Shown one piece after another: positions 7,880 to 25,277 of a stretch of DNA of 38,592 bases. Numbering within the stretch: position 1 is the first letter of the stretch; each line of letters starts with the position of its first letter. Source of the DNA: Burkholderiales bacterium RIFCSPLOWO2_02_FULL_57_36 (GTDB lineage: Bacteria > Pseudomonadota > Gammaproteobacteria > Burkholderiales > Burkholderiaceae_D). The position numbers and the translations under genes are program-made. The stretch lies in assembly GCA_001770855.1 (NCBI GenBank), contig MESE01000007.1, forward strand, positions 1 through 38,592, in the 5' to 3' direction. The notes under the pieces are model-generated. The model did no database searches and was not told the origin of the DNA. It saw nothing but the letters and a program-made list of their open reading frames with translations.

Positions 7880-8731
7880 CTATCCGGGGGAAAATGTCCA
7901 TTCCGGCACTCCTTGCCTGATTAACTCTGCTTTGTTCTTGAGGAAGAGATGCCGAGCATTTGGATTCTCGGTACCCTCATCAGAATAATCGATGGGCCAG
8001 TGCCGAAGAAAGTAACCTACTAAGCAGGCTCTCAGTGACACATATTTAGCATCGTCCGTAATGTCATAGTCTAAGCGAATTGTTTCCGGATGATTGGATT
8101 TGGGATGAGGCACCAGCTTCAATTGCACTTCTGTATTCCACTTTTGATCTTTTTCTAACGTTATATCAGACGGATCGCTCTGCTCAACTTCACTAAACCG
8201 CGCTAAGTTGTAATCGCGAAATTCCTCTTTTTTATGATCGAAACATCGTATGTGCCAACGCAACCCGTCGTACACCACTGCCAAAGGTGACAGCTCTCGC
8301 TTTTTATCGCCACTTGAAATAGAAACGTAGTTTGCCGTTATTTTTCGGTGTTGGTAGATGCAGCGGGTAATGACCGCGACTAGAGACACCGGTATTTTTC
8401 GCTTGATACTGGTGCTAACCCAGCTCGAAAGTCGTTTGGCATGCTCGGGGTCGGTAGCGAGAGGGCGATCTCCTGTTAGAGAAAACAGTGCTTGGTCGAC
8501 TAGATGGGTAAAAAGAGGCTTCCCATCCCCGTATACATAACACTTTCGCCGAAGATCGTAGTTAAGAAGTCCCGGAGCGAGCTCCGCATAGAGCGAAAGA
8601 TCTTTTGTGGCAGCGGGTTCACTAATGCCGAATCGGGAAACCAGGTCTTTTCTGGTCACCTGGCCGGTGAAAAGGGCCAAAAACTCTAAAAAAAATAAGC
8701 GCTCCCGCTGAATATCTCGCTGTAGGCTCAT
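7880..8731 (-). CDS. WYL-domain transcriptional regulator, CapW/BrxR-like
   Basis: I start at ATG 8731 (MSLQRDIQRERLFF). The longer frame to 8824 would add an AT-rich, hydrophobic stretch that runs across the promoter. The 283-residue protein begins with a winged-helix region (about 1-80, FTGQVTRKDLVSRFGISEPA). A central WYL domain follows (LSPLAVVYDGLRWHIRCFD, then RDYNLARFSEVE). Its C-terminal domain has the form of the WCX extension. Such proteins (CapW, BrxR) sit beside CBASS, BREX and other defence operons and repress them until infection. It is divergent from the peptide/E2-E1/JAMM operon across 204 bp that contain a matching pair of inverted repeats, so it most likely controls that operon and itself. 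The inducing ligand is unknown. Confidence 0.85.
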   Translation of the reverse strand: MSLQRDIQRERLFFLEFLALFTGQVTRKDLVSRFGISEPAATKDLSLYAELAPGLLNYDLRRKCYVYGDGKPLFTHLVDQALFSLTGDRPLATDPEHAKRLSSWVSTSIKRKIPVSLVAVITRCIYQHRKITANYVSISSGDKKRELSPLAVVYDGLRWHIRCFDHKKEEFRDYNLARFSEVEQSDPSDITLEKDQKWNTEVQLKLVPHPKSNHPETIRLDYDITDDAKYVSLRACLVGYFLRHWPIDYSDEGTENPNARHLFLKNKAELIRQGVPEWTFSPG

Positions 8732-8878: not shown

Positions 8879-8935
8879 GTTCACTTGACCGGACACAAAC
8901 CAAAGCGTTGAGTCCTCGTTTATCAGGAGTTGCAA

Positions 8936-9061
8936 ATGAGTAACAAGCCCGAAAAGCCAGACCATCCAAAGCATCCAAACGTCCCACCCGGCCCACCCGA
9001 CAATCGGCCGAAACCTGGACACGGCGCCCCGAATCCGCCCGGCCATCGCCCGGTAGGTTAA
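8936..9061 (+). CDS. 41-residue Pro/Gly/His/Lys-rich peptide ending in Val-Gly; candidate modifier or substrate of the E2-E1/JAMM system
   Basis: ATG at 8936 is preceded by a strong ribosome site, AGGAG with a six-base spacer. The frame is 41 codons and stops at TAA 9059-9061, two bases before the E2-E1 start, so it is the first gene of the operon. It starts MSNKPEKPDH and ends GHRPVG. It has 14 prolines, five glycines, four lysines and four histidines, with no cysteine and no aromatic residue. It cannot be a folded beta-grasp ubiquitin-like protein and is probably disordered. Its C-terminal glycine is what an E1 adenylates in ubiquitin-like modifiers, and its lysines could be acceptors. Position and terminus suggest it is conjugated or is the conjugation target; this is inference. 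I do not recognise a described family. Confidence 0.75.
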   Translation: MSNKPEKPDHPKHPNVPPGPPDNRPKPGHGAPNPPGHRPVG

Positions 9062-9063
9062 AA

Positions 9064-10812
9064 ATGGAATCTTGGTGGGACCGTCACCCCGATGCGCTCG
9101 AAGCCGAGGAAGCTGGCCTCGACGCATTGGGTTACGTGTGGAGTAAAAGTGAGGATGAATGGCGTGCTGGTAGATTGGTCATCAATGTTGAGATACCGCA
9201 CGACCAGGAGACGTTAAAGCTCCGAGCAGAATACCCTGCGACTTTTCCGTACTTCCCCCCACACGCTTTTCTGGGAGAACAAGTCTTTCAGCGCCATCAG
9301 CATCTGGTCGGGAAAAACCTTTGCTTGTTAGCCCGCGAAGGACTGGATTGGCGCCCCGGCATCGACACGCTCGCCATTCTTCTTAAAGAACAGCTCCCAA
9401 AAATTCAGGCCACAAACGCTGTTGGTCTGCCGACGTCGATGGTCGCGAGCCAAGAGGATCACGTCGGCGAGCCGTTTTCATCCTTCCTACCGTACGCTGC
9501 AAGTTGCGCGATCATTGTTCCAGACGACACGCCACCGTCAGAGCAGTCCCGAGGCAAACTCACGTTGTTGATCCGTCCACGGCAAAAAGCAGGTAATTCG
9601 CCGCTCTTGTTAAATGGCATCCTTCGGGAGATCCATGACTCGACCGGAAGATTACTAATCAATTTTCCCGTCAAATTGCCGGCGTTTTCTGAAACGGTAA
9701 CGGGTTTTTGGTCGCGATTGCCTGAACGCCCGAGCATGCATGGGGATGTCCATGCGACGAGTATCCATTTTTACAATCACATGCTAACGGAAGTGCCTGA
9801 ATTTAAAAAAGCCGTCCGGGCTGCGGCGCGAGGACAAATTGTGGTTGCCGGCTTTGTATATTCGGACGAAGTGGAGTGGCAAGCGAATTCAGACGACTGG
9901 TTCTTCCTGACCGCGCAAATTCTATCCCCGGCTAAGCGCTCACAAGACGCGGCCGTGCGGCTAAACTTCATTCGGGCGGATTGGGGCGGCGAAAAAGCTC
10001 TTACTCAACGTGCGCCCGCGCTCCGCCCGCTTCGCAACAAATCTGTCTTACAAATTGGATTGGGCAGCTTAGGTTCACCAGTCAGTTTGCATCTGGCGCG
10101 GGCAGGACTCGGCCAATTGCATCTTGTCGAATATGATGAGCTCCAGGTCGGGAACACCATTAGATGGGCGCTAGGTTGGCAATATGTGGGATTTCACAAA
10201 GCTCATGCGTTGGCAGGCTATGTAGCGCAAGAATATCCCTATACTCAAGTTCATCCCCATCATGTTCGCATCGGTGCGCCGTACCCGCCGAATACGCCAT
10301 CTGACTACCAAATAATTCGCGAACTTGCTGAGAGAACAGATCTCATCATTGACTCAGCGGCTAGCCATCGAGTTAGCCACTTTTTGGCTGATCTCGCCAA
10401 GGAGCTTGGCAAACCATATCTTTGGCTGACTACGACTCATGGCGCGGCCGGCGGTGTCGTCGGTCGAATCCTGCCTGACCGCCCCCGAGGAGGTTGCTGG
10501 CACTGCTTTCAGCACGGCCTTGCCGACAAGTCCATACGTCTTCCAGCCGATACCGGACCAGAGGAGGTCCAACCGGGCGGATGCTCGCAACGCACCTTTA
10601 TTGGAGCTGGAATTGATAGTGATGAAATCGCGCTCTTGGCAGCACGACTTGCTGTCGCGACGCTCAGTAGGAACGAGCAAAGTGGATACCCAGATTTTGC
10701 GTGGGATATAGCGGTCGCTGACTTGACCAGGAATGAACTGTCAATTGCTCCGGATTGGACGTCCTACGCTTCGGTAAAGAATTCTGCTTGCCGCACGTGC
10801 AATTCGCAATGA
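9064..10812 (+). CDS. E2-E1 fusion, Cap2-like ubiquitin-type conjugation enzyme
   Basis: 582 residues. The N-terminal E2-like fold (about 1-115) has the YPATFPYFPPHAFL strand region and the probable catalytic cysteine C87 in HLVGKNLCLLA. A middle region (about 140-310) matches the size of the linker/inactive domain of Cap2 proteins. The E1/ThiF adenylation domain follows, with the nucleotide loop GLGSLGSP (332-339), acidic strand end VEYDEL, and R367 in NTIRWALG. Cysteine pairs CWHC (478-481) and CRTC (576-579) look like a zinc site; C507 in QPGGCSQRTF is the likely E1 catalytic cysteine. It should activate a C-terminal glycine and transfer it through both cysteines to a target. It overlaps the JAMM gene by ATGA. 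Family relatives are CBASS Cap2 and the Bil/Bub-type enzymes; no CD-NTase is adjacent. Confidence 0.88.
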   Translation: MESWWDRHPDALEAEEAGLDALGYVWSKSEDEWRAGRLVINVEIPHDQETLKLRAEYPATFPYFPPHAFLGEQVFQRHQHLVGKNLCLLAREGLDWRPGIDTLAILLKEQLPKIQATNAVGLPTSMVASQEDHVGEPFSSFLPYAASCAIIVPDDTPPSEQSRGKLTLLIRPRQKAGNSPLLLNGILREIHDSTGRLLINFPVKLPAFSETVTGFWSRLPERPSMHGDVHATSIHFYNHMLTEVPEFKKAVRAAARGQIVVAGFVYSDEVEWQANSDDWFFLTAQILSPAKRSQDAAVRLNFIRADWGGEKALTQRAPALRPLRNKSVLQIGLGSLGSPVSLHLARAGLGQLHLVEYDELQVGNTIRWALGWQYVGFHKAHALAGYVAQEYPYTQVHPHHVRIGAPYPPNTPSDYQIIRELAERTDLIIDSAASHRVSHFLADLAKELGKPYLWLTTTHGAAGGVVGRILPDRPRGGCWHCFQHGLADKSIRLPADTGPEEVQPGGCSQRTFIGAGIDSDEIALLAARLAVATLSRNEQSGYPDFAWDIAVADLTRNELSIAPDWTSYASVKNSACRTCNSQ

Positions 10813-11297
10813 CCTCTTTTTTCTGGATCAGCAATTCAGCCTTCCGAAATTTAACCAATGAAGCCGATCGAGCCTATCCGTTCGAAACCGGGGGAGTGTT
10901 GGTGGGCTACGTTGCTGTGACCGGCGAACCTGTTATCTTCGAAGCTATTGGACCGGGCCCTAAAGCGATTCACCGACGCACCAGATTTAATCCGGATCAT
11001 GCGTGGCAATGCGAACAACTTAACGCGCTGTTCGAACGCTCCTCAGGTCGTTGGACATATCTTGGAGACTGGCACACCCATCCGAATGGATCCCCAAGAA
11101 TGAGTTGGCTGGATCACAGAACGTTGCATTCGATCGCTATACACCCGCAGGCTCAAATGCCGAGACCACTAATGCTAATTGGTGGTGGCGCCGCTCAAAG
11201 TTGGGATTGGGAGGGACATTTGTATTTAACACCCCGTCTATTCGGTCTGCTGACGGAGTGTGAAGAAATCGCTCCGCGTATTTTTCATCAAACATAG
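10809..11297 (+). CDS. JAMM/MPN-family isopeptidase, Cap3-like
   Basis: I start at ATG 10809, which overlaps the E2-E1 stop (ATGA). An in-frame upstream ATG at 10755 lies inside the E2-E1 gene. The 162-residue protein is one JAMM domain. It has glutamate E26 in YPFETGGVLVGY and the zinc motif H89-x-H91 in GDWHTHPNG, followed by S99 and D102 (SWLDH). Such enzymes remove ubiquitin-like conjugates or trim precursors; in type II CBASS, Cap3 reverses Cap2 conjugation. As last gene of the operon it probably processes or releases whatever the E2-E1 protein attaches, with the 41-residue peptide as the obvious candidate. Confidence 0.9.
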   Translation: MTSFFWISNSAFRNLTNEADRAYPFETGGVLVGYVAVTGEPVIFEAIGPGPKAIHRRTRFNPDHAWQCEQLNALFERSSGRWTYLGDWHTHPNGSPRMSWLDHRTLHSIAIHPQAQMPRPLMLIGGGAAQSWDWEGHLYLTPRLFGLLTECEEIAPRIFHQT

Positions 11298-11386: not shown

Positions 11387-12106
11387 TTAAAGCAAATTTG
11401 GCTGCGGCTCAAATCGGAAAGGCTCGTTTGCGCCGGATTCAAGATGTTTCGCTGCCAGATCTAAAAACGCTCGGGTTGGACCGCTTGCCCAAAGGGTAGT
11501 CGCCGCGCTCTTTAAAATATACTCCTGCAGCCGAGAGGATATGGCAAGGTCGTGACCAATGGCCATTCTAATTGCTCTCCATGCGGCTTTCTCGGGCGCG
11601 GGGTTATGTTCTAAATTGATATCGAGGATTCGTCTATTTAACGCCTCAACATAATTGGCTGCGCCAACAACGTAGGAGCTTTTGAGCGGCTGATATGCCG
11701 CGTCCAGATTGAAGAATGTAGTGGCGCAAAGGTCCTTAAGCGTCTCTGCCTTTACGAGCCCTTCTTTAAAGGCCCAGGTGTCGCGAAAAGACCAAATGTC
11801 GAACAGTTGACGTCCTACGATAAATCGAAAGCCTCCAAATTTATTGATTTCGGGATTATGAATACGAATCGCAGCAAGGATGTCTGCTTTGTCTGCCATC
11901 GAAACCAGGTCGATATCGGAGTTGAAGTCTCGCGCCGACCCCAGACCTAAATCGCGAATCATTCCGCCGAACACAACTGTTGCAGGTAAGCGACCAGATA
12001 AAAAACTCACGAAGTCGCGAGTACTCGCTCGTGCCGTGTTTTGGTCAAATAAGTAGCGGTGAACTCGCTTACCGACGCTTGCGGAGTATGTCTCAGTCTT
12101 TTCCAT
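11387..12106 (-). CDS. Class II nucleotidyltransferase-fold protein in a defence operon
   Basis: 239 residues. The segment VVFGGMIRDLGLGSARDFNS followed by DIDLV (45-68) has the GG...RD...DxD signature of poly(A)-polymerase/CCA-enzyme head domains: G47-G48, R51-D52, D64 and D66. The rest is mainly helical (HNPAPEKAAWRAIRMAIGHD) and does not show a full CCA enzyme body. It overlaps the end of the HD-protein gene by 14 bp and is the third gene of that operon. It could transfer nucleotides to RNA, protein or a small molecule; the substrate is unknown. It is convergent with the JAMM gene 89 bp away. It does not look like a cGAS-type CD-NTase, so it is unlikely to be the missing CBASS synthase, but that should be tested. 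Confidence 0.7.
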   Translation of the reverse strand: MEKTETYSASVGKRVHRYLFDQNTARASTRDFVSFLSGRLPATVVFGGMIRDLGLGSARDFNSDIDLVSMADKADILAAIRIHNPEINKFGGFRFIVGRQLFDIWSFRDTWAFKEGLVKAETLKDLCATTFFNLDAAYQPLKSSYVVGAANYVEALNRRILDINLEHNPAPEKAAWRAIRMAIGHDLAISSRLQEYILKSAATTLWASGPTRAFLDLAAKHLESGANEPFRFEPQPNLL

Positions 12107-13616
12107 TTGGCGGCGTAGGCGGTAAAGGGGGCATAAGTTCGCAATTACCTTGAAGACCCTGAAGTTCTTTATAGAGGCTCAATGCATACGAATCGGTCAT
12201 ACCTGAGACCATGTCGGTAAGCAGCTGACATTTATAGTACCACGGCGGCAAGCCACCTTCTTTGACCGCGGAATCAAACGTCCGCCGATAATTTTCCGAT
12301 ATCCGAATATAGACATATCGAGCAAAGGGATGCTGCGCGCTTTGCTCCTTCGGAGTTTTCCCTGCCATCTTATCGATGCTGAACCAGAACATGTCCATTA
12401 ATCCTCGAAGGGTATTAAAACCTTCGAGTTCAAGCGCCAATACCGATTTATGGGTGTACCCATGGGTGAAGGAAAACGATTTCAGAGTCCCGCGAAGAGT
12501 CTCAGCTGCACTGATGCGAAGCAACGGGGCGACTTGCGTGCCGTCAACGAAAGATTTAACATTTTCTTCAAAAGTGCGAGTGGCCTCACGAATCATGGCG
12601 TTGATGGCGAACACGCGAAAACGCTGCATGGAAATATCGTTTAGCTCTGCAGGCGACAAATCTCCCGCGTTGTCTCTGTAGTCTTGGTGCTTTTTTTCGC
12701 TTTCAAAGACTACATATTCCACCACAGGATCCGCCCCACCATGGTGACGGAGGTACGCAATGAGGTCAGCAAAGGAGGCCAATCCCTTTTTCACCGAATC
12801 CTCTGCGTCAAGCACTACGTAGGCAATATCATCGCAAGCCTCCATTACATACGTTAAAGCATGCCTTTTCCCAGCCTCCAACCCCACGTATTGTAGGACT
12901 TCGCCAGCAATGGCGCTTTCAGATCTAAAGTACCCATGTTTCTTAGTGGCGGCCACCGCGTCGTTCAGTTGGTCGGACGACGTTGGGTATTTCATCATCG
13001 CAGCAAGAGTCGCGTACGTTAAATTCAGACCATACGAATCATTTAAAAGTTGAAGACGTGTCACTAAGCGAAAGCCTTGCGCATTGCCTTCGAACAGTTC
13101 AAAGTCTTTATACAGTTTTGCAGCGTCTTCCCCAATTTCTATGCGCCTTCTATTTTCGTCAAACCATCGTTGTATTGCTGTTTCACCTTGGTGTCCAAAA
13201 GGAGGGTTTCCTAAGTCGTGAACCAAACCTATCGCAGCTAGCAAAGACGGCACATCGCGAGCCGCCTTTTGTACTTTGGCGATAGTAGACGATGGCGAGT
13301 AGAACAAAGCGACGCCAAAGCTCCGCGCAAGGTTTGAAACCTCATAAGAATGAGTCAAGCGATTACGAACGCTATCGTTCTTATCAAGCGGAAACACTTG
13401 GGTTTTATCCGCAAGGCGTCGCACCGGAGTTGAGAAGAGAATTCGATCAAAATCTCTCTCGATTTCGGTACGAGATTCATCAGCCAAATGAGCCGAGCTG
13501 CTAGACTCCAAGGGCTCTTTTTTTCCATCCTTCTTATCGGCAGGTTTCCTACGTTGCGATCGAAGTCGCGCTTCCCATAAATTTGTCAGACTTGCTTCGT
13601 GTGGTTCACTAGTCAT
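12093..13616 (-). CDS. dGTPase-like HD-domain phosphohydrolase
   Basis: 507 residues, close to the dGTPase family length. Motifs seen are TPVRRLADKTQVFPLDKNDS followed by VRNRLTHSYEVSNLAR with metal ligand H89, then GLVHDLGNPPFGHQGE with H133-D134, and a later aspartate in EACDDIAY. These are hallmarks of dNTP triphosphohydrolases. Family members hydrolyse dGTP (or other dNTPs), and some act in phage defence by draining the nucleotide pool. It lies 46 bp behind the helicase-nuclease gene and overlaps the nucleotidyltransferase gene, so the three form an operon. A basic, Ser/Lys-rich N-terminal segment (about 20-50) precedes the catalytic domain. A defence role is inferred from context. Confidence 0.88.
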   Translation of the reverse strand: MTSEPHEASLTNLWEARLRSQRRKPADKKDGKKEPLESSSSAHLADESRTEIERDFDRILFSTPVRRLADKTQVFPLDKNDSVRNRLTHSYEVSNLARSFGVALFYSPSSTIAKVQKAARDVPSLLAAIGLVHDLGNPPFGHQGETAIQRWFDENRRRIEIGEDAAKLYKDFELFEGNAQGFRLVTRLQLLNDSYGLNLTYATLAAMMKYPTSSDQLNDAVAATKKHGYFRSESAIAGEVLQYVGLEAGKRHALTYVMEACDDIAYVVLDAEDSVKKGLASFADLIAYLRHHGGADPVVEYVVFESEKKHQDYRDNAGDLSPAELNDISMQRFRVFAINAMIREATRTFEENVKSFVDGTQVAPLLRISAAETLRGTLKSFSFTHGYTHKSVLALELEGFNTLRGLMDMFWFSIDKMAGKTPKEQSAQHPFARYVYIRISENYRRTFDSAVKEGGLPPWYYKCQLLTDMVSGMTDSYALSLYKELQGLQGNCELMPPLPPTPPNGKD

Positions 13617-17555: not shown

Positions 17556-18440
17556 ATGGAGCTGTCGCTCAAAAATGTACTATCGCTATATGGCCTTCAG
17601 GATTTTCAAACGACGAAGGTAGTACGACATAAAGACCGACGACTGGAGCTGGCTACGGGAGCGGGGCTGTTTGAGCTTCTTGAGCGTCGCATTAATGGGA
17701 AGCCTCTCATTGAATGGTATCAGTCTATCCAGAGCAAAAATGTTTTCAAGGCGTGCGAGCGCATCATTAGTTTCTATAGCAATTATCATGCGCAGACGGT
17801 ACTGCTAGGTGTGTTTACGTGCCGCGGATTTGCCGGGGGTGATTTGCCGCCTAGGCTACCGCACCCTATATTTTATGAGGACGCTCATTTTCACTATGAC
17901 CTTGAGCGAGACGCCAGATTCTCCGATTTAGAAAACAGACTGGTCATCGAATGGGGCGAATCGCACATCAATTGGCATCAGCACTTGCACAACAAGGACA
18001 AGGCGGTCCTCGAAATTCTGCCAATTGGATATCTCATGCCGTTCCCAGGCTTTGACCGCGTTATGCTTACATTCGCCCAACTGAGGTACCTTGTTCAGCA
18101 TGAAATGGGAAACAGAGAATGGGTTCAGCGGCTTGCGGGCGTGAATGGAATATATCTAATAACAGACCAGAAGGACAGCGAGCAATACGTTGGCGCTGCC
18201 TATGGCGAATCCAGTGACGTTGGCGGGATTTGGGGCCGCTGGCGACAATACGCAACCACCAATGGAACGGGCGGCAATCTTGGACTCACCGAGAAGCTGC
18301 TCAAGTGCCCCGACAAGGCGCATGACTTACTGTTCTCGATCCTGCAAATCACTGACAAGTCATCAAGAACCGCTGTGCTGAAGCTGGAACAAACATGGAA
18401 AGAAAAACTTGGGACTCACGTTCATGGATTGAACCGCTAA
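17556..18440 (+). CDS. GIY-YIG nuclease domain protein
   Basis: 294 residues. The C-terminal third is a GIY-YIG domain: GIYLI (198-202), YVGAAYG (211-217), an arginine in GIWGRWRQYA (R228), the metal-binding glutamate E278 in KLEQTWKEKLG, and the closing GLNR. The N-terminal two thirds (about 1-190) are not recognisable and may bind DNA or a partner. The start ATG 17556 has AGAAG five bases upstream. Solo proteins of this design occur in defence and mobile regions and may cut foreign DNA. It precedes jetA on the same strand by roughly 80 bp and may be co-transcribed, but it is not a standard Wadjet component. Confidence 0.8.
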   Translation: MELSLKNVLSLYGLQDFQTTKVVRHKDRRLELATGAGLFELLERRINGKPLIEWYQSIQSKNVFKACERIISFYSNYHAQTVLLGVFTCRGFAGGDLPPRLPHPIFYEDAHFHYDLERDARFSDLENRLVIEWGESHINWHQHLHNKDKAVLEILPIGYLMPFPGFDRVMLTFAQLRYLVQHEMGNREWVQRLAGVNGIYLITDQKDSEQYVGAAYGESSDVGGIWGRWRQYATTNGTGGNLGLTEKLLKCPDKAHDLLFSILQITDKSSRTAVLKLEQTWKEKLGTHVHGLNR

Positions 18441-18522
18441 AACACGTGAGCACGCTTCAGAACCACTGATGTCAGATTCGAATCTATTTTTGCGAATTCG
18501 ATTCTGTTGCGAAAGACAGCTT

Positions 18523-19986
18523 ATGAACTCTGTTAAGGCCATTGCCCAATTTCGACAGCTGCGAGCACAGGCACTGTGGAAATTGCTCGCTTCGCACAAC
18601 GCGCCGGTGACGCTTGCTGTGTTGCAGGGACTGCTCTTGGATGACAACAAAATTCTGCCGGCTTCGGCCTTGCATGAGCGGTTGACGCAAGAACTTAAGG
18701 TGCTGAAACAAGCCGGTGAGGACATGGCCCAATCCGCGCAGGCATACGTCGCTGTGTGGCTTTCGGAAGGTTGGGTCACCAGGCGTCTGCCGACAGGGGC
18801 TCAAGAGGAGCAATATGAGTTGACGACGGATGCCGTTACAGCTATCCGCTTCCTGCAAGGCGTGCTACAGCCACGGGCCCTAGCCACCGAAAGCCGACTG
18901 GCAACAGTCATCCAGCAGTTAACCAAACTGGCTGAGGATACCGATCCTGACCCGGGAAGCCGGCGCAATGCATTGCTGGCTGAGCGCGCTCGCATCGACC
19001 GGCAGCTGGACGAGCTTGGCCGCGGCATAGTGCACACGTTACCGGCTGAACGGGCGCTGGAGCGGGCGCGGGAGGTCATTGCACTGGCAGACGAGCTGGC
19101 GGCCGACTTTCGGCGAGTGCGTGATGATTTCGACCAGCTAAATCGTCAGCTACGCGCGGATTTGCTCAACAACGAGGGTAGCCGTGGCCAGGTACTGGAA
19201 CAGCTGTTCGTAGGTATGGACCTCATTGGCGAGACGCCCGCTGGCAAGACCTTCTACGCATTCTGGCGCCTCCTCACGGACATTGAGCAAACGACTATTT
19301 TCTCGGAGGCGCTGACAGAAGTCATTGAACGCGATTTTGCCAAGCAGCTGGGCTCCGAGGAAAGACGTTTCCTTCGCAACCTTACCAACCGTTTGCTGGA
19401 CGAAGGCGGGTCGGTTCACGAAGTGCTTCATACATTCTCACGCAGTCTGCGCACCTTTGTTCAAAGTCGCGAGTACCTTGAGCAACGGCGCTTTACCTCG
19501 GTGCTTCGCGTGTCTCAGCGAGACGCACTTGCGGTCAAGGACGAAGTGCGCGCTAACCAAGACATCGGCTTCGAACTCTGGCTGACCAGCGCGCGCCTTC
19601 GCTCCGCGTCCCAGTGGCATCTGTACGATCCCGCCGAGCGGATGGCCGACGCCAGCATGAAGGATGCGCCGACGTCCTCCATGAACCTGCATGACATCGC
19701 GGACATGGTGCGCAATTCCGAAATCGACTTTGCCTTGCTCAAGCGCAACATCCGGGAGCGACTACAGCACTCTAGCGTAGTTGGCATCGAAGAACTGCTA
19801 CGCGTCTATCCGGCCACCCAAGGCTTGGGCTCCGTCGTCGGCTACATTCACCTTGCCATACGCCATGGCCAAGTTATTCCGAGCCAAGTACAAGTGACTT
19901 GGCTCGGAATGGACAGCGTGCGCCGCGCCGCGCACGTCCCATCGGTCTACTTCCTAAAGGAACAACAGCATGAATTTACCCGCTGA
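18523..19986 (+). CDS. jetA: Wadjet protein JetA (DUF3375), kleisin-like subunit
   Basis: The frame is open from ATG 18469, but I prefer ATG 18523 (MNSVKAIAQFRQLRAQALWK). JetA proteins begin close to this FRQL...LLASHNAPVTL segment, and neither start has a strong ribosome site. About 487 residues, helical, with the NAP-type N-terminal motif and the long middle region of DUF3375. JetA bridges the SMC-like JetC and the JetB subunits in the Wadjet complex, which recognises and cleaves small circular DNA such as plasmids. Its gene overlaps jetB by 17 bp. Identity rests on the intact four-gene order behind it as well as on sequence. Confidence 0.92.
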   Translation: MNSVKAIAQFRQLRAQALWKLLASHNAPVTLAVLQGLLLDDNKILPASALHERLTQELKVLKQAGEDMAQSAQAYVAVWLSEGWVTRRLPTGAQEEQYELTTDAVTAIRFLQGVLQPRALATESRLATVIQQLTKLAEDTDPDPGSRRNALLAERARIDRQLDELGRGIVHTLPAERALERAREVIALADELAADFRRVRDDFDQLNRQLRADLLNNEGSRGQVLEQLFVGMDLIGETPAGKTFYAFWRLLTDIEQTTIFSEALTEVIERDFAKQLGSEERRFLRNLTNRLLDEGGSVHEVLHTFSRSLRTFVQSREYLEQRRFTSVLRVSQRDALAVKDEVRANQDIGFELWLTSARLRSASQWHLYDPAERMADASMKDAPTSSMNLHDIADMVRNSEIDFALLKRNIRERLQHSSVVGIEELLRVYPATQGLGSVVGYIHLAIRHGQVIPSQVQVTWLGMDSVRRAAHVPSVYFLKEQQHEFTR

Positions 19987-20659
19987 CACTGAAAGCGACG
20001 ACGTCGACCTCGATACTGCGGGAAAAGATGACGGCGCGGTTGAAAGCGAGGCGCGCTTCGAAGGTGACACGGGTACCTTACCTGTCCCCGCCCGACGCGT
20101 GCTGGTACGTCTACTCCAAGGACCGTCCCTGGACGCGCGCAGGCACGAAAAACTGTGGAATCTGTTAAAGCGCCATGAATCAGCGCTGCGATCGCGCCTT
20201 CATGACATGTTTTTGGAACTCGTTTTAGACAATCAGAGCCGTATCGCCTTCACTCGACAGGTAACCTCCGAGGAGGTCGATATTCCGATCCTGCTGCGCC
20301 GGCAGAATCTGAGCTTCATCGAATCGGTCCTCTTGCTATTCTTGCGTCAGAAACTCACGCACTCGGACGCCCAAGCCGAGCGTGCCGTGGTCGACCGGAT
20401 TGAGATGCAGGAGTACCTCAAGGCTTACGAGCGCAGCGACAACGTTGACATCTCCCGCTTTGGTAAGCAGATGGACAGTGCCATTGAGAAGGCCAAGACA
20501 TTGGGAGTACTGCTAAAACTCCCCGGTACTGATGATCGTTACGAAGTCTCTGCCTCATTGCGGTTGTTGTTCCCGGTCGAGGAAATCGAGGTACTGACCA
20601 CGGCATATCGTCGTTACGCACCGGCAGGCCAGACTGCCGAACAGCAAGAGGGCTCGTGA
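19970..20659 (+). CDS. jetB: Wadjet protein JetB (DUF4194), KITE-like subunit
   Basis: 229 residues with an acidic N-terminus and a winged-helix-like body (LLRRQNLSFIESVLLLFLRQ, then EVSASLRLLFPVEEIEVLT), characteristic of DUF4194. JetB is the KITE subunit that dimerises and binds JetA in the Wadjet SMC complex. ATG 19970 has AAGGA nine bases upstream and lies within the end of jetA; its stop overlaps the jetC start. The tight overlaps indicate one transcript and coupled translation. Confidence 0.93.
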   Translation: MNLPADTESDDVDLDTAGKDDGAVESEARFEGDTGTLPVPARRVLVRLLQGPSLDARRHEKLWNLLKRHESALRSRLHDMFLELVLDNQSRIAFTRQVTSEEVDIPILLRRQNLSFIESVLLLFLRQKLTHSDAQAERAVVDRIEMQEYLKAYERSDNVDISRFGKQMDSAIEKAKTLGVLLKLPGTDDRYEVSASLRLLFPVEEIEVLTTAYRRYAPAGQTAEQQEGS

Positions 20660-23600
20660 TGGACGCTACTATGCCGCATCCTACGTTGGCATCAGCTCAG
20701 CAAGCGACGCTTTCCCCCGGCCGCGAGTTCCAATTCCAGCTACAGCGCATTCAGACCTACCGCTGGGGAACGTTCGACGACCTTCGTGACATCGACATCG
20801 CGCCACAAGGGCATCTGATCCTGGGCCCGTCCGGCTCGGGCAAGAGCACGCTGTTGGATGGCCACACATCGCTGCTGACACCACCGCGTTGGCTCGATTT
20901 TAATGTGGCGGCCCGCAACTCGGATAAGGGCAGTACGGGGGACCGGAGTCTTGCGACCTACGTGCGTGGCGCCTGGGCTACTCAGACGAGCGACGACGGC
21001 GAGAAGGTCAAGCGCTACCTGCGCACCGGGACTACCTGGTCGGCGATTGCCGAGACCTATCGCGATGGTACCGGCCGTGTCGTCGTGCTAGGGCGCATCC
21101 TCTGGATTAAGGGCAGCGGCTCGGCACATGGAGACGTGCACCCACTCTTTTTCCTGGCCGAACGGGAGTTCTCGCTGCGGGAGTTGGACTTTTTCCCTCA
21201 GGCAGGCGCTGGCTTCGACGTGCGCAAGCTTAAAAGCACTCTAAGTGACGTGTCTTTTACCGACGAGTTCAGCGGCTATCAGAGCAAGTTCATGCGGCTG
21301 TTTGGCATTGCGAGTGATCGCGCGTTACGCTTGCTGCACAAGACACAATCGGCTAAAGACCTGGGCGACCTGAACAAGTTTTTGCGCGACTTTATGCTGG
21401 ATCCACCGGAGACCTTCACGGTGGCCGAAACACTCGTCAACGAATTCCAAGTACTCAACTCCGCCCACGAGGCCGTACTTACTGCGCGCAAGCAAATCGA
21501 GGCGCTGCGGCCTGCGCGCGACGCGCTGGCCGAATACACTCAGACCCGAGCCTTGCTGTCCTCGCTGGCTGAGGAGCGCATAGGTGTCGATTACTTTCGG
21601 GAACATTGGCGCAAGCGTTTGCTGGATACACAGATCGGTGAGTTGCACACCCGAGCCAGTGGCATTGCCCAAAGCATCGAGGCTTTCAAAACCAAGGAAG
21701 GACAGGAAGCAAGCGCCTACAACGCTTTACTTGCCAAACGTGCCGGCGCTGGAGGAGACGTACTTGCGAGCCTCAACGAGCAAATGGACCGTGTCGAGCG
21801 AGTACGGCTGCCCGAGGTAAGCTCCAACCACGACCGCATGAAGGCAGCGTGTACGGCACTGGAGCGGGCATTACCTGCGAGCCCGCAGTCCTTCGCTGAA
21901 ATGCAGACCGAGGCACGCCAAGTCGTCGACCAGCGTGAATCGATGAATGAGCGACACGAGACGGAACTGGACAAGCACAAGGAGGTTAAGCGCCTGACAG
22001 AGGAACGGTTCAACTCCTTGGTGACCGAAATCCGGGCGATGGAGACGCGTAAGTCAAATATGCCTTCTCATTTATTAGGCATCCGGGAACAAATCTGTCG
22101 CTCGCTGCGGATCTCAGAGGAAAGCCTCCCTTTTGCAGGCGAGCTGTTGCAGGTAAAGCCTGCCGAAGTCAAATGGACCGGCGCTCTTGAACGCGTTCTT
22201 GGCGGTTTCGCCACGTCGATGCTGGTGGAGGAGGAGTTCTACCGTGAGATGGCAGCTTATGTGAATGAGACCCACTTAGGGCATCGGTTCGTCTATTTGC
22301 GCATGATTTCCCGCACAGCACAGCCCACGTCGGATCTTACGCCGAACTCGCTCGTACGCAAACTAGACATCGCGCAGCAACATCGGGCTTGGCTGCAGGA
22401 GGAACTGCGCAGTCGCTTCGACTACCTGTGCGTCGATTCCGCGGACGACCTGCGCACCGTCGAACGCGGCGTGACGGTCGCCGGCCAAGTGAAGCACAGT
22501 CGCACGCGTCATGAAAAGGACGATCGTCGGCGTGTTGACGAACGCAAGAGCTGGGTGATGGGATTTTCCAACAGTGAAAAGATTGAAGCCTATAAGGCTG
22601 AGGCCATGGAGCTGGCGCCGGCCATCGAGGCTGCCAATAGGGCAATTGAGAAGGCGCGCAACGCTGCAGTGCGCGAACGCGATCAGGTGATGCACTGCCA
22701 GAGTCTGGTGAACTTGACATGGGAGAACACAAACGTTGTGGCGCTTCTCGATGAGGTGAAAAGTCTCAAGGCACGCATCGACCAGGAACTAAAGGACAAC
22801 CCTCAGCTGAGCGAACTCGACAGCCTGATCGACAAGCAGAAGAAACAATGGGATAAGGCGACCGAGGTACGTCAGGGTGCGGAAGGAAATGCTAAGGAGG
22901 TGGGTTCCGAGCTCACCAAGGCGCAACGACGGTTGGACGAAATTCCGGACGAGGCGCTTGCTGTTCGCCTGACGCCAATGCAGGAGCAAGGATTGGAAAA
23001 GAGATTTTCGGAATCCGGACGCAAGATTTCGGCAGATAATTTGGATCAGGCTGCGGGCACGGTTTTGAAGGCGATCGGAGAAGAGGAGCGCAATGCGACC
23101 GCGCGCTCGGGTGACATCAAGGCGCACATAGAAAAACTCCTCTTCGTGTTTTGCAGCGCATGGCCAGCGGAGGCACAGGGACTGGATGCAAGATTAGAGG
23201 CAGCGGACAACTTCATGGCCAAGCTTGAGCGGCTAGAGACAGATGGCCTGTATGAGTTCGTGTCGCGCTTCAAGGCGCTGCTGCGTGAACAGAGCGACCA
23301 GAATCTTGCTGTGCTCCATACGCGCCTGGACCAAGAACGCCGCTCTATCCAAGAGCGCCTGGATCAGGTCAACACGAGCTTGCGCCGGTGTGCATTCAAT
23401 GACAACACTTATCTGGTTATCGACTACCAGGACAAGCCGCCCACCCTGGTGACGGAATTCCGTCACCAGTTGAAGTCTGCGCTCAGTCACAGCTTTAAGG
23501 AAGATGACGACCAGGAAATGGAAAGGCGCTTCGCGGAGCTCAACACTGTCGTACAACGCCTTGGGAGCCAACTACCAGAAGACGTAAAGTGGCGCAACCT

Positions 23601-24084
23601 GGTGCTGGACGTGCGTCAACACGTGGAGTTTTCCGCCACCGAGTTCGACGAAACTGGTATCGAAGTGGAGGCATACGACAGTGGCGCAGGCAAGTCCGGC
23701 GGCCAGCGCCAAAAACTCACCACCACATGTCTGGCGGCTGCGTTGCGGTATCAACTTGCTGGCGAAGACGGCATGTGGCCCAGCTACTCGACAGTCGTTA
23801 TGGATGAAGCGTTCGACCGAGCCGACAACGAATTCACCGCCATGGTGATGAACATATTCAAAAACTTCGGATTCCAGGTAGTTGCCGCCACCCCGGTGAA
23901 GAACGTGATGGCGCTGGAACCCTTTATCGGAGGCGGTTCTTTCGTGAGCATCCGCGACCGAAAATTCTCTGAGGTGCTAGCCATCACGTATATCGACGAA
24001 ACAGGCCGGCTAGATCTCCCGGTAGAAGCGCAGGATGCTCTTGCCGACGAGCTTGCCGCTGAAACGAACGAACCGGAAACATGA
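20656..24084 (+). CDS. jetC: Wadjet protein JetC, SMC/MukB-like ATPase
   Basis: 1142 residues. Walker A GPSGSGKS (57-64) is near the N-terminus. Long charged coiled-coil arms fill the middle. The C-terminal head carries the ABC signature in SGAGKSGGQRQKLTTT (about 1008-1023) and Walker B STVVMDEAFDRAD (about 1042-1054). JetC is the motor that extrudes DNA loops so that JetD can cleave closed circles. The start can be GTG 20656 or ATG 20659; both overlap the jetB stop, and AAGAGGG lies just upstream. Its stop overlaps jetD by ATGA. All ATPase motifs are intact, so it should be active. Confidence 0.96.
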   Translation: MMDATMPHPTLASAQQATLSPGREFQFQLQRIQTYRWGTFDDLRDIDIAPQGHLILGPSGSGKSTLLDGHTSLLTPPRWLDFNVAARNSDKGSTGDRSLATYVRGAWATQTSDDGEKVKRYLRTGTTWSAIAETYRDGTGRVVVLGRILWIKGSGSAHGDVHPLFFLAEREFSLRELDFFPQAGAGFDVRKLKSTLSDVSFTDEFSGYQSKFMRLFGIASDRALRLLHKTQSAKDLGDLNKFLRDFMLDPPETFTVAETLVNEFQVLNSAHEAVLTARKQIEALRPARDALAEYTQTRALLSSLAEERIGVDYFREHWRKRLLDTQIGELHTRASGIAQSIEAFKTKEGQEASAYNALLAKRAGAGGDVLASLNEQMDRVERVRLPEVSSNHDRMKAACTALERALPASPQSFAEMQTEARQVVDQRESMNERHETELDKHKEVKRLTEERFNSLVTEIRAMETRKSNMPSHLLGIREQICRSLRISEESLPFAGELLQVKPAEVKWTGALERVLGGFATSMLVEEEFYREMAAYVNETHLGHRFVYLRMISRTAQPTSDLTPNSLVRKLDIAQQHRAWLQEELRSRFDYLCVDSADDLRTVERGVTVAGQVKHSRTRHEKDDRRRVDERKSWVMGFSNSEKIEAYKAEAMELAPAIEAANRAIEKARNAAVRERDQVMHCQSLVNLTWENTNVVALLDEVKSLKARIDQELKDNPQLSELDSLIDKQKKQWDKATEVRQGAEGNAKEVGSELTKAQRRLDEIPDEALAVRLTPMQEQGLEKRFSESGRKISADNLDQAAGTVLKAIGEEERNATARSGDIKAHIEKLLFVFCSAWPAEAQGLDARLEAADNFMAKLERLETDGLYEFVSRFKALLREQSDQNLAVLHTRLDQERRSIQERLDQVNTSLRRCAFNDNTYLVIDYQDKPPTLVTEFRHQLKSALSHSFKEDDDQEMERRFAELNTVVQRLGSQLPEDVKWRNLVLDVRQHVEFSATEFDETGIEVEAYDSGAGKSGGQRQKLTTTCLAAALRYQLAGEDGMWPSYSTVVMDEAFDRADNEFTAMVMNIFKNFGFQVVAATPVKNVMALEPFIGGGSFVSIRDRKFSEVLAITYIDETGRLDLPVEAQDALADELAAETNEPET

Positions 24085-25277
24085 GCCAACCCAAGCGTAT
24101 TTCGCCGGCACAAGCGCTTGCGGCTGTGACCAAGAAGTGGATTTCTCACCATGCGAGTTGGTTAATAGGAGCACTGGATGCTCCAAGCTGGCCGCAGACA
24201 TTCAGCCTGCACAAACTTACGGAAAAGGATGTTCTCGCGGACTTGCCAGGTACGCGTGAATGGGTCAACAGTTGGCGGAATCGGGATGCTGCAGATGGTG
24301 CAGTCGAGTGGGCACCTCGGCGCTGGTCGTCGGGAGACCAGGAACTACCGTCCCGACTAGTCTTGGCCAATCCCGAGGAAATGGCACGACTTCTTGGCTG
24401 CGGAAAGGTATGGGGTCGTGCCCGCGAGCGGTATGCTGACTGGTCCACCCGATTTCCGCGTCTGTCCGGGTCAGGGGCATTGGCGCGGGTCTGTGATCAG
24501 GTGCTCATTGGTTATGACGATGCCGATTTTGTTCGACTTACCGCATTGTTGCAGTGGCTGGTGGATAACCCGAATTCCGGGTTGTATCTGCGCCAGTTGC
24601 CTGTGGTGGGTGTCCATACCAAATGGATCTGGCCGCGTCGCGGCGTTGTGCAAGATCTAATGCGTCAGATCCTCGACAGAACCGAGGGAGGCGGCTTCCA
24701 TGAGCTGTGGGGCTTGCGCGCCGAGCCGGCACGACTTCGGATGCGTGTGCTATGTCCGCGGCTTCGAGCGGCTGTAGGTGGGCTTTGTGACATCGAGGCG
24801 CCCGTTATGGAATTGGCAGCTCTGCAGCTTGCGCCAACCATCTCTTTGGTTGTGGAAAACCTGAATACCGGTATCGCGCTACCGGACATCGATGGTACCG
24901 TCGTCTTTATGGGCCTTGGCGTGGCAGTGGAACAACTGGATGCCATCGGTTGGTTACGCGGGGCAAAACGACATGTGTATTGGGGCGATATTGACACGCA
25001 CGGTTTCGCCATTCTGGCACGTGCCAGACGAAGATTTCCGCAGACCGTATCGGTTCTCATGGATGAGGGCACGCTACTGGCTCATCGTGATCTGTGGGTA
25101 CGCGAGCCGGCTCCCTGCCGCGTCGAGAATCCTGAGGGACTTACTGCGGCAGAACTGGCTGTGTATGAAGGTCTGCGTGCCAACCGATGGGGCGAGCAGG
25201 TTCGTTTAGAGCAGGAACGCGTTGCTTGGCCGGCGGCGCTGAGGGCTATCTCCAATACACTTGGGAATCGACGGTAA
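24081..25277 (+). CDS. jetD: Wadjet protein JetD, topoisomerase VI-like/Toprim nuclease
   Basis: 398 residues with the DUF3322 N-terminal region and the DUF2220 Toprim-like C-terminus. The Toprim-type acidic residues are visible in HVYWGDIDTHGFAILARAR (about 298-316) and VLMDEGTLLAHRD (about 325-337). JetD is the nuclease that cuts plasmid DNA once the SMC complex has measured a circle. The gene overlaps jetC by ATGA and completes a full, unbroken jetABCD operon with the order of type I Wadjet; the type assignment is less certain than the system. Confidence 0.94.
   Translation: MSQPKRISPAQALAAVTKKWISHHASWLIGALDAPSWPQTFSLHKLTEKDVLADLPGTREWVNSWRNRDAADGAVEWAPRRWSSGDQELPSRLVLANPEEMARLLGCGKVWGRARERYADWSTRFPRLSGSGALARVCDQVLIGYDDADFVRLTALLQWLVDNPNSGLYLRQLPVVGVHTKWIWPRRGVVQDLMRQILDRTEGGGFHELWGLRAEPARLRMRVLCPRLRAAVGGLCDIEAPVMELAALQLAPTISLVVENLNTGIALPDIDGTVVFMGLGVAVEQLDAIGWLRGAKRHVYWGDIDTHGFAILARARRRFPQTVSVLMDEGTLLAHRDLWVREPAPCRVENPEGLTAAELAVYEGLRANRWGEQVRLEQERVAWPAALRAISNTLGNRR

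Follow-up and report, generated by a model that had tools for sequence, protein, structure and literature searches.

What does an E2-E1 conjugation enzyme act on when the only other genes of its conserved operon encode a protease and a proline-rich peptide of 41 residues? The question is raised by contig MESE01000007.1 of Burkholderiales bacterium RIFCSPLOWO2_02_FULL_57_36, of which the whole stretch analysed, 38,592 nucleotides, is called the window here. In it, the peptide gene is followed by genes encoding a Cap2-like E2-E1 fusion and a Cap3-like JAMM protease. We consider it probable that the peptide is itself the modifier of a self-contained Cap2/Cap3-like system, the E2-E1 protein attaching it and the JAMM protein removing it. 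That the operon stands for a widespread branch of E1-E2 systems with a purely disordered, proline-rich tail as modifier, conjugated at a terminal Val-Gly or Val-Ala and removed by the JAMM enzyme, also appears fairly likely. The features concerned are as follows.

8925..8929, + strand: Shine-Dalgarno-like AGGAG (sequence)
8936..9061, + strand: proline-rich 41-residue peptide ending RPVG, predicted modifier (sequence; 24 of 24 testable loci; synonymous codon variation)
9047..9058, + strand: Arg-Pro-Val-Gly codons, conserved C-terminal end of the peptide (17-row codon table)
9064..10812, + strand: Cap2-like E2-E1 fusion, 582 residues (Pfam, PADLOC, PDB profile, Foldseek)
9322..9324, + strand: Cys87 codon, putative E2 catalytic cysteine (kept in 16 of 16 aligned peptide-type enzymes)
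10582..10584, + strand: Cys507 codon, putative E1 catalytic cysteine (kept in 16 of 16 aligned peptide-type enzymes)
10809..11297, + strand: Cap3-like JAMM/JAB protease, 162 residues (Pfam Prok-JAB, NCBIfam, conserved ligands)

The frame at 8936-9061 is a genuine, conserved coding sequence for the peptide. Read directly in the sequence, it extends from an ATG at 8936 to a TAA stop at 9059-9061 (41 codons, MSNKPEKPDHPKHPNVPPGPPDNRPKPGHGAPNPPGHRPVG), a six-base spacer separating the ATG from the AGGAG and two bases (9062-9063) separating the stop from the E2-E1 ATG at 9064; an alternative in-frame TTG start two codons further 5' would yield 43 residues. Fourteen of the residues are proline, there is no Cys, Trp, Phe or Tyr, and the C-terminal end is Pro-Val-Gly. 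An earlier reading of the letters without database searches (the sequence-only reading) had pointed out the AGGAG, the composition, the ending and the two-base gap, and all were recovered upon rereading. When the window was simulated 40 times with a first-order Markov model, a tail with 30% or more proline occurred in 2 of 43,976 stop-to-stop frames of at least 25 residues, neither of which ended in Gly; the real window contains 904 such frames, two with such a tail, and the one of them that ends in Gly is the peptide. Conservation is a stronger argument than this chance simulation that the peptide is genuine. Searches of family models gave the peptide no match in Pfam, NCBIfam or PADLOC.

Related E2-E1 genes were collected from 27 loci: the window, nine loci on genome contigs, 14 on plasmids and three in whole genomes (L025, L044 and L045; L numbers are our own). 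Upstream sequence is testable in 24 of these; the contigs of L006 and L011 begin inside the E2-E1 gene, and L010, counted apart, offers the last 21 peptide codons, ending RPVG. A proline-rich peptide precedes the E2-E1 gene in 24/24 testable loci, which amount to about 17 cases once near-copies are merged (L007/L008, L021/L022, L023/L034, L030/L031, L019/L032/L033 and L004/L044). The sequence-only reading had suggested that short frames upstream of related E2-E1 genes be compared, and this comparison left no testable locus without a peptide. In L034 the public start codon lies 5' of the peptide end, and the peptide lies in a different frame 5' of the aligned start. The three-gene unit is present in at least four phyla, Pseudomonadota, Acidobacteriota (a metagenome-assembled genome), Actinomycetota and Bacteroidota; besides the Acidobacteriota genome its sources include Pseudomonas, Methylotuvimicrobium, Polaromonas, Sinorhizobium, Sphingobium, Indioceanicola, Arthrobacter, Iamia and Hymenobacter. 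The lowest E2-E1 identity to the window among the family loci is about 24-30%.

What is conserved in the peptide is its end. Twenty-one of the 24 peptides end in exactly Val-Gly, two carry one or two residues after Val-Gly (L016, GQQ; L025, GR) and one ends in Val-Ala (L045). The expectation that a C-terminal Gly would be conserved therefore holds for 23 of 24, two of them with trailing residues like those of modifier pro-forms, and fails for one, which has Ala, likewise found at the end of Cap2 substrates. A codon table of 17 peptides, drawn up without the Ala-ending L045, has Val and Gly in every row, Arg in 16 and Pro in 15; four Val codons, three Gly codons and, for Arg, AGG as well as CGN codons are in use, and the last two codons vary synonymously only. 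L029, the second copy on plasmid pNGR234a, ends KHVG, with Arg-Pro lost and Val-Gly kept. Comparison of the last 30 codons of L021 and L023 reveals 20 synonymous and 2 nonsynonymous codon differences. Given that codon changes are mostly synonymous, the codon pattern indicates selection for the peptide sequence rather than for the RNA. When about 5.8 billion proteins were searched with a peptide profile, 42 peptides were returned at E values up to 1, 35 ending in Gly, three in Gly plus Q, AI or AA, and four in Ala, a set that is partly circular because the search profile included the ending. The two pNGR234a copies are quite different from each other (L021 ends HRPVG, L029 PKHVG). One database protein, P0158, has a charged, helical-looking N-terminal stretch followed by a proline-rich tail ending HRQVG, and is perhaps a small-headed member.

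Could the peptide be a leader, whose proline-rich chain stalls or couples ribosomes to control E2-E1 translation and has no role thereafter? Proline-rich nascent chains are able to stall ribosomes, the peptide always lies upstream, and in 18 of the 20 loci measured the gap to the E2-E1 gene is -1 to 6 bases. However, the gap reaches 32 bases in L020 and, by an annotated start, 82 in L032, and members differ in how long the N-terminal half is but share a fixed extreme C-terminus. The residues found after Gly in some members misfit arrest at the stop codon, the Gly/Ala ending fits the rule for E1 substrates, and without the peptide the core would have no substrate gene at all. A leader function is in our view improbable.

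The preferred reading, in which the peptide is the modifier, calls for enzymes that could handle it. The E2-E1 protein matches Pfam ThiF (2.1e-18) and PADLOC E1-E2 (5.9e-42); its best PDB profile match is Cap2 (3.9e-24), and the E2 enzyme UBE2L3 is matched as well (6.3e-5). The top Foldseek match of its structure model is Cap2-CdnD02 (7to3; 1.3e-23), covering the whole length; among the 50 entries listed for the model by VIA-align 2, mostly single E1 domains, Cap2 does not appear. Residues and phylogeny were compared for 16 peptide-type enzymes of the 27 loci, leaving aside L020 and L022 (broken E2-E1 frame), L006, L010 and L011 (partial upstream) and the near-copies L008, L031-L034 and L044. 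Cys87 and Cys507 are kept in all 16, and the ATP-site residues of the E1 part are conserved among the aligned enzymes; in the model, a low-confidence loop adjoins Cys507 (residues 503-506, predicted local distance difference test score below 50). These features are compatible with adenylation of a modifier and thioester formation at its C-terminus. In the tree, the peptide-type enzymes all fall on one side of a single branch, and because the support of that branch is 48/47 we do not claim a single origin for them. The E2-E1 and JAMM frames of L020 (Iamia) are broken, and the E2-E1 of L022 (Sinorhizobium CCBAU 05631) is annotated as two genes, in both cases by decay or sequencing error. In L019, L032 and L034 the public E2-E1 start is apparently misplaced, and no peptide gene is annotated there.

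The JAMM protein matches Pfam Prok-JAB (5.2e-13) and the NCBIfam Cap3 model (4.8e-14, below the curated cut-off). Its start overlaps the E2-E1 stop (ATGA, 10809-10812), its gene lies directly 3' of the E2-E1 gene in 27/27 loci, and the JAMM metal ligands are kept, Glu26, His89, His91, Ser99 and Asp102 being invariant in the 14 of these that were aligned.

The E2-E1 matches also include MccB and PaaA, E1-like enzymes from the biosynthesis of peptide antibiotics. This brings up a different product: as in the MccA/MccB pair of microcin C7, where an E1-like fold acts on the C-terminus of a short ribosomal peptide, the enzyme could modify the peptide C-terminus to yield a small toxin or signal. Here too, a short ribosomal peptide is encoded next to an E1-like enzyme, and genes for a nonribosomal peptide synthetase and a MATE efflux protein lie upstream in the near-copies L019, L032 and L033. 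Yet MccB-MccA is not known to have an E2 domain or a JAMM protein, and its peptide, with a C-terminal Asn, gives rise to an antibiotic, whereas here the peptide ends in Gly or Ala, the E2 cysteine is kept in 16/16 enzymes and a JAMM gene follows in 27/27 loci. Annotation shows neither MATE nor synthetase genes in the vicinity of L030 and L031, which are close relatives, and the 14 plasmid loci, for which the PLSDB gene tables are incomplete, share no exporter. A natural product is thus quite unlikely. A phosphopantetheinyl transferase gene is also found upstream of the operon in L019, L032 and L033.

The E1 half, in addition, keeps ThiF/MoeB-like cysteine pairs (C478, C481 and C576 in 16/16, C579 in 14/16), as would be expected if the E1 made a C-terminal thiocarboxylate on the peptide and the peptide served biosynthesis as a sulfur carrier in the manner of ThiS or MoaD. 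The E2 domain with its conserved cysteine does not suit such a function, the core contains no biosynthetic gene, and the peptide model is without the beta-grasp fold; we give this explanation very little credence.

In its structure model the peptide has no secondary structure (predicted template modelling score 0.19). The peptide is accordingly predicted to be unfolded, in line with the disorder assumed in the sequence-only reading, and the beta-grasp fold that marks modifiers of the Bil, Bub, SAMP, ThiS and MoaD types is absent from the model. How does such a peptide compare with known modifiers? Pup is short and disordered too, but is joined by PafA, a ligase of the glutamine-synthetase type, through a C-terminal Glu and with no E1, E2 or JAMM known to take part; the window peptide ends in Gly. 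Bub operons, like Bil operons, encode a ubiquitin-like modifier with separate E1 and E2 proteins. Bil and Bub resemble the present unit in uniting a bacterial modifier with E1, E2 and JAMM. In Bil, according to a review (PMC11354881), BilC, the JAMM enzyme, trims the modifier BilA to expose Gly, and the difference is that BilA contains ubiquitin-like domains and that its E1 and E2 are not fused. The peptide is described nowhere in the literature titles and abstract openings searched, weak evidence in that subscription papers and preprints are thinly covered there.

The closest likeness is to the type II cyclic oligonucleotide-based antiphage signalling system (CBASS). Both have an E2-E1 fusion with a separate JAMM protein in the order substrate, E2-E1, JAMM, a substrate C-terminus of Gly or Ala, and kept cysteines in E2 and E1. 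That Cap2 substrates end in Gly or Ala is stated by Jenson et al. 2023 (PMC10097602), and the sole departure from the beta-grasp rule that is named in PMC12355090 is Cap2 with its folded cGAS-like enzyme. The differences are that here the core has no cGAS/DncV-like nucleotidyltransferase, its slot being held by a peptide of about 40-60 residues with no predicted folded domain, and that the conserved core has no cyclic-nucleotide effector. No window gene beyond the core recurs in the 24 loci, save a WYL-domain gene (in two), and the annotated plasmid loci share no gene between or after the core genes.

Twelve more distant E1 relatives (L013-L015, L026-L028 and L035-L040) served as controls, and none has a proline-rich Gly-ending peptide at the start of its E2-E1 or E1 gene; upstream frames were scanned in ten of them, L027 and L028 being viewed only in a wider listing. 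In L037, a frame with 24% proline 145 bases upstream ends in Ala-Leu and was not counted as such a peptide. In eight of the 12 the preceding gene encodes a nucleotide cyclase, a protein of the type conjugated by Cap2, six by PADLOC (CBASS models for L013, L026, L027 and L028; Pycsar models best for L014 and L015) and two by annotation (L035 and L038), and seven of the eight cyclases end in Gly or Ala (L015 in Ser). A cyclase lies one gene further upstream in L039, an annotated metallo-beta-lactamase (MBL) gene is found in L036, and L037 and L040 have only weak MBL-like matches upstream, tested in L040 one gene further up. A tblastn search with six control cyclases found none in 26 of the 27 family loci within the available flanks, which differ in extent and are short for L005, L006, L008, L010 and L011. 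The exception, L031, has a CBASS-type cyclase that ends in Arg, encoded on the opposite strand (2218-2889, - strand) some 0.9 kb 5' of the peptide. The cyclases of L014 and L015 are Pycsar-like although they adjoin a Cap2-like E2-E1.

Two further E2-E1 groupings were compared. 6A-MBL proteins (Iyer 2006, row 6a; NCBIfam NF058523) contain related E2, E1 and JAMM modules, which the NCBIfam models match in part, but they form one fused protein, mostly beside a metallo-beta-lactamase, whereas here, in the window and its relatives, E2-E1 and JAMM are separate genes; the NCBIfam match to the 6A-MBL model scores 73 bits against a cut-off of 320. Row 6b of Iyer et al. 2006 (PMC1779556) places the Rhizobium NGR234a plasmid and an Arthrobacter among E2-E1/JAB operons, the partner named in that entry being a pol-beta nucleotidyltransferase and no peptide being mentioned in it.

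How might the system work? The E1 part would adenylate the terminal Gly or Ala of the peptide, which would then pass to Cys507 and from there to Cys87, and the E2 part would link it to an amine, in the way that Cap2 links the tail of cGAS-like enzymes. The JAMM protein would take the peptide off other molecules again. Members with residues after Gly (Q, QQ, R, AI or AA) would need JAMM-type trimming, so that a protease, plausibly the JAMM protein, may first remove these residues. Set against the substrate of Cap2, the cGAS-like head would be gone and only the disordered tail left, as a gene of its own. We infer conjugation, its targets and trimming in this manner, and regard the substrate as reduced to its tail because the peptide has the ending, the gene position and both enzymes, and the core offers no other substrate candidate. 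The suggestion that the peptide replaces the usual modifier gains from its presence in 24/24 loci, the Gly/Ala ending, the kept catalytic residues and its absence from the 12 controls.

Alternatively, the peptide could be a pseudo-substrate occupying the E1 site, or an acceptor receiving some other, unlinked modifier; the sequence-only reading had itself offered the peptide as a conjugation target. It has a few lysines, mostly in the N-terminal half, which might be taken for acceptor sites. However, no Lys column is invariant or nearly so, whereas the terminal Val-Gly is, and comparison of the related loci and the plasmid annotations revealed no other gene in the core that might encode a modifier. 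This alternative is not favoured and has a low probability. A hidden beta-grasp modifier was looked for in the operon and rejected; the peptide is the sole extra core gene.

The peptide as modifier would bear on how E1 enzymes recognize their substrates. E1 enzymes are thought to require a folded modifier for docking; if the reading is true, the requirement is reduced to a few C-terminal residues, and any fold is dispensable for a modifier of E1-E2 enzymes. The operon would be a minimal three-gene conjugation kit, its enzymes known in type (Cap2/Cap3-like) and its modifier new in kind. It would also explain E2-E1/JAMM operons that PADLOC CBASS models match though no cyclase belongs to them.

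A peptide profile run against 396 genomes of the same phylum (up to 17 candidates per genome scored) matched in G000 and G389, the two with a full-length E2-E1, and weakly in G485, there with the middle of the profile only. Among 398 genomes drawn by the same rule, the E2-E1 profile (best three candidates per genome scored) gave full-length matches only in G000 and G389, and three more genomes matched the E1 part. In 195 genomes of relatives the sole full-length E2-E1 match was the window's own, three other matches covering the E1 part alone, and 399 genomes of the same order yielded only the window's own E2-E1 (best three candidates per genome scored). Homology searches found no related locus in viral contigs and no match in phages.

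Is the operon part of a defence arsenal? PADLOC detects JetA, UzuA and JetB-JetD near it. Of six neighbouring genes tested in five related loci, four match PADLOC defence models (DrmD in L003, IetS in L009, a type I methyltransferase in L007, RmrA/CapP-like in L005); the two without a PADLOC match are a second gene of L003 and one of L004, a transposase. For ten of the 14 plasmid loci, the plasmid is typed as conjugative. Given these defence genes and conjugative plasmids, and by analogy with Cap2, the likeliest role is defence against phages or other mobile elements. In the window, positions 17556-25277 hold a UzuA-like gene and then Wadjet type I JetA-JetD, a defence island lying beyond dGTPase-like and RecB-like/helicase genes.

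The genes that flank the core in the window were not retained as members. Upstream lies one more feature.

7880..8731, - strand: divergent WYL-domain protein, probable regulator, outside the core (Pfam WYL, 4.3e-12)

It recurs only in L003 and L004 among the 24 related loci and was rejected as a core member. Downstream, a gene for a 239-residue protein, without a family match in Pfam or PADLOC, and a dGTPase-like gene were rejected as partners, being absent from the 24 related loci. By eye the 239-residue protein is nucleotidyltransferase-like, and its gene overlaps the dGTPase-like HD gene (window 11387-13616, - strand), possibly as a separate two-gene unit. A divergent RES/Xre toxin-antitoxin pair lies upstream of the peptide in L021, L022, L023 and L034. 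Overall, the upstream neighbour varies (WYL in the window, helix-turn-helix/M78 in L005, RES/Xre elsewhere) while the core stays constant.
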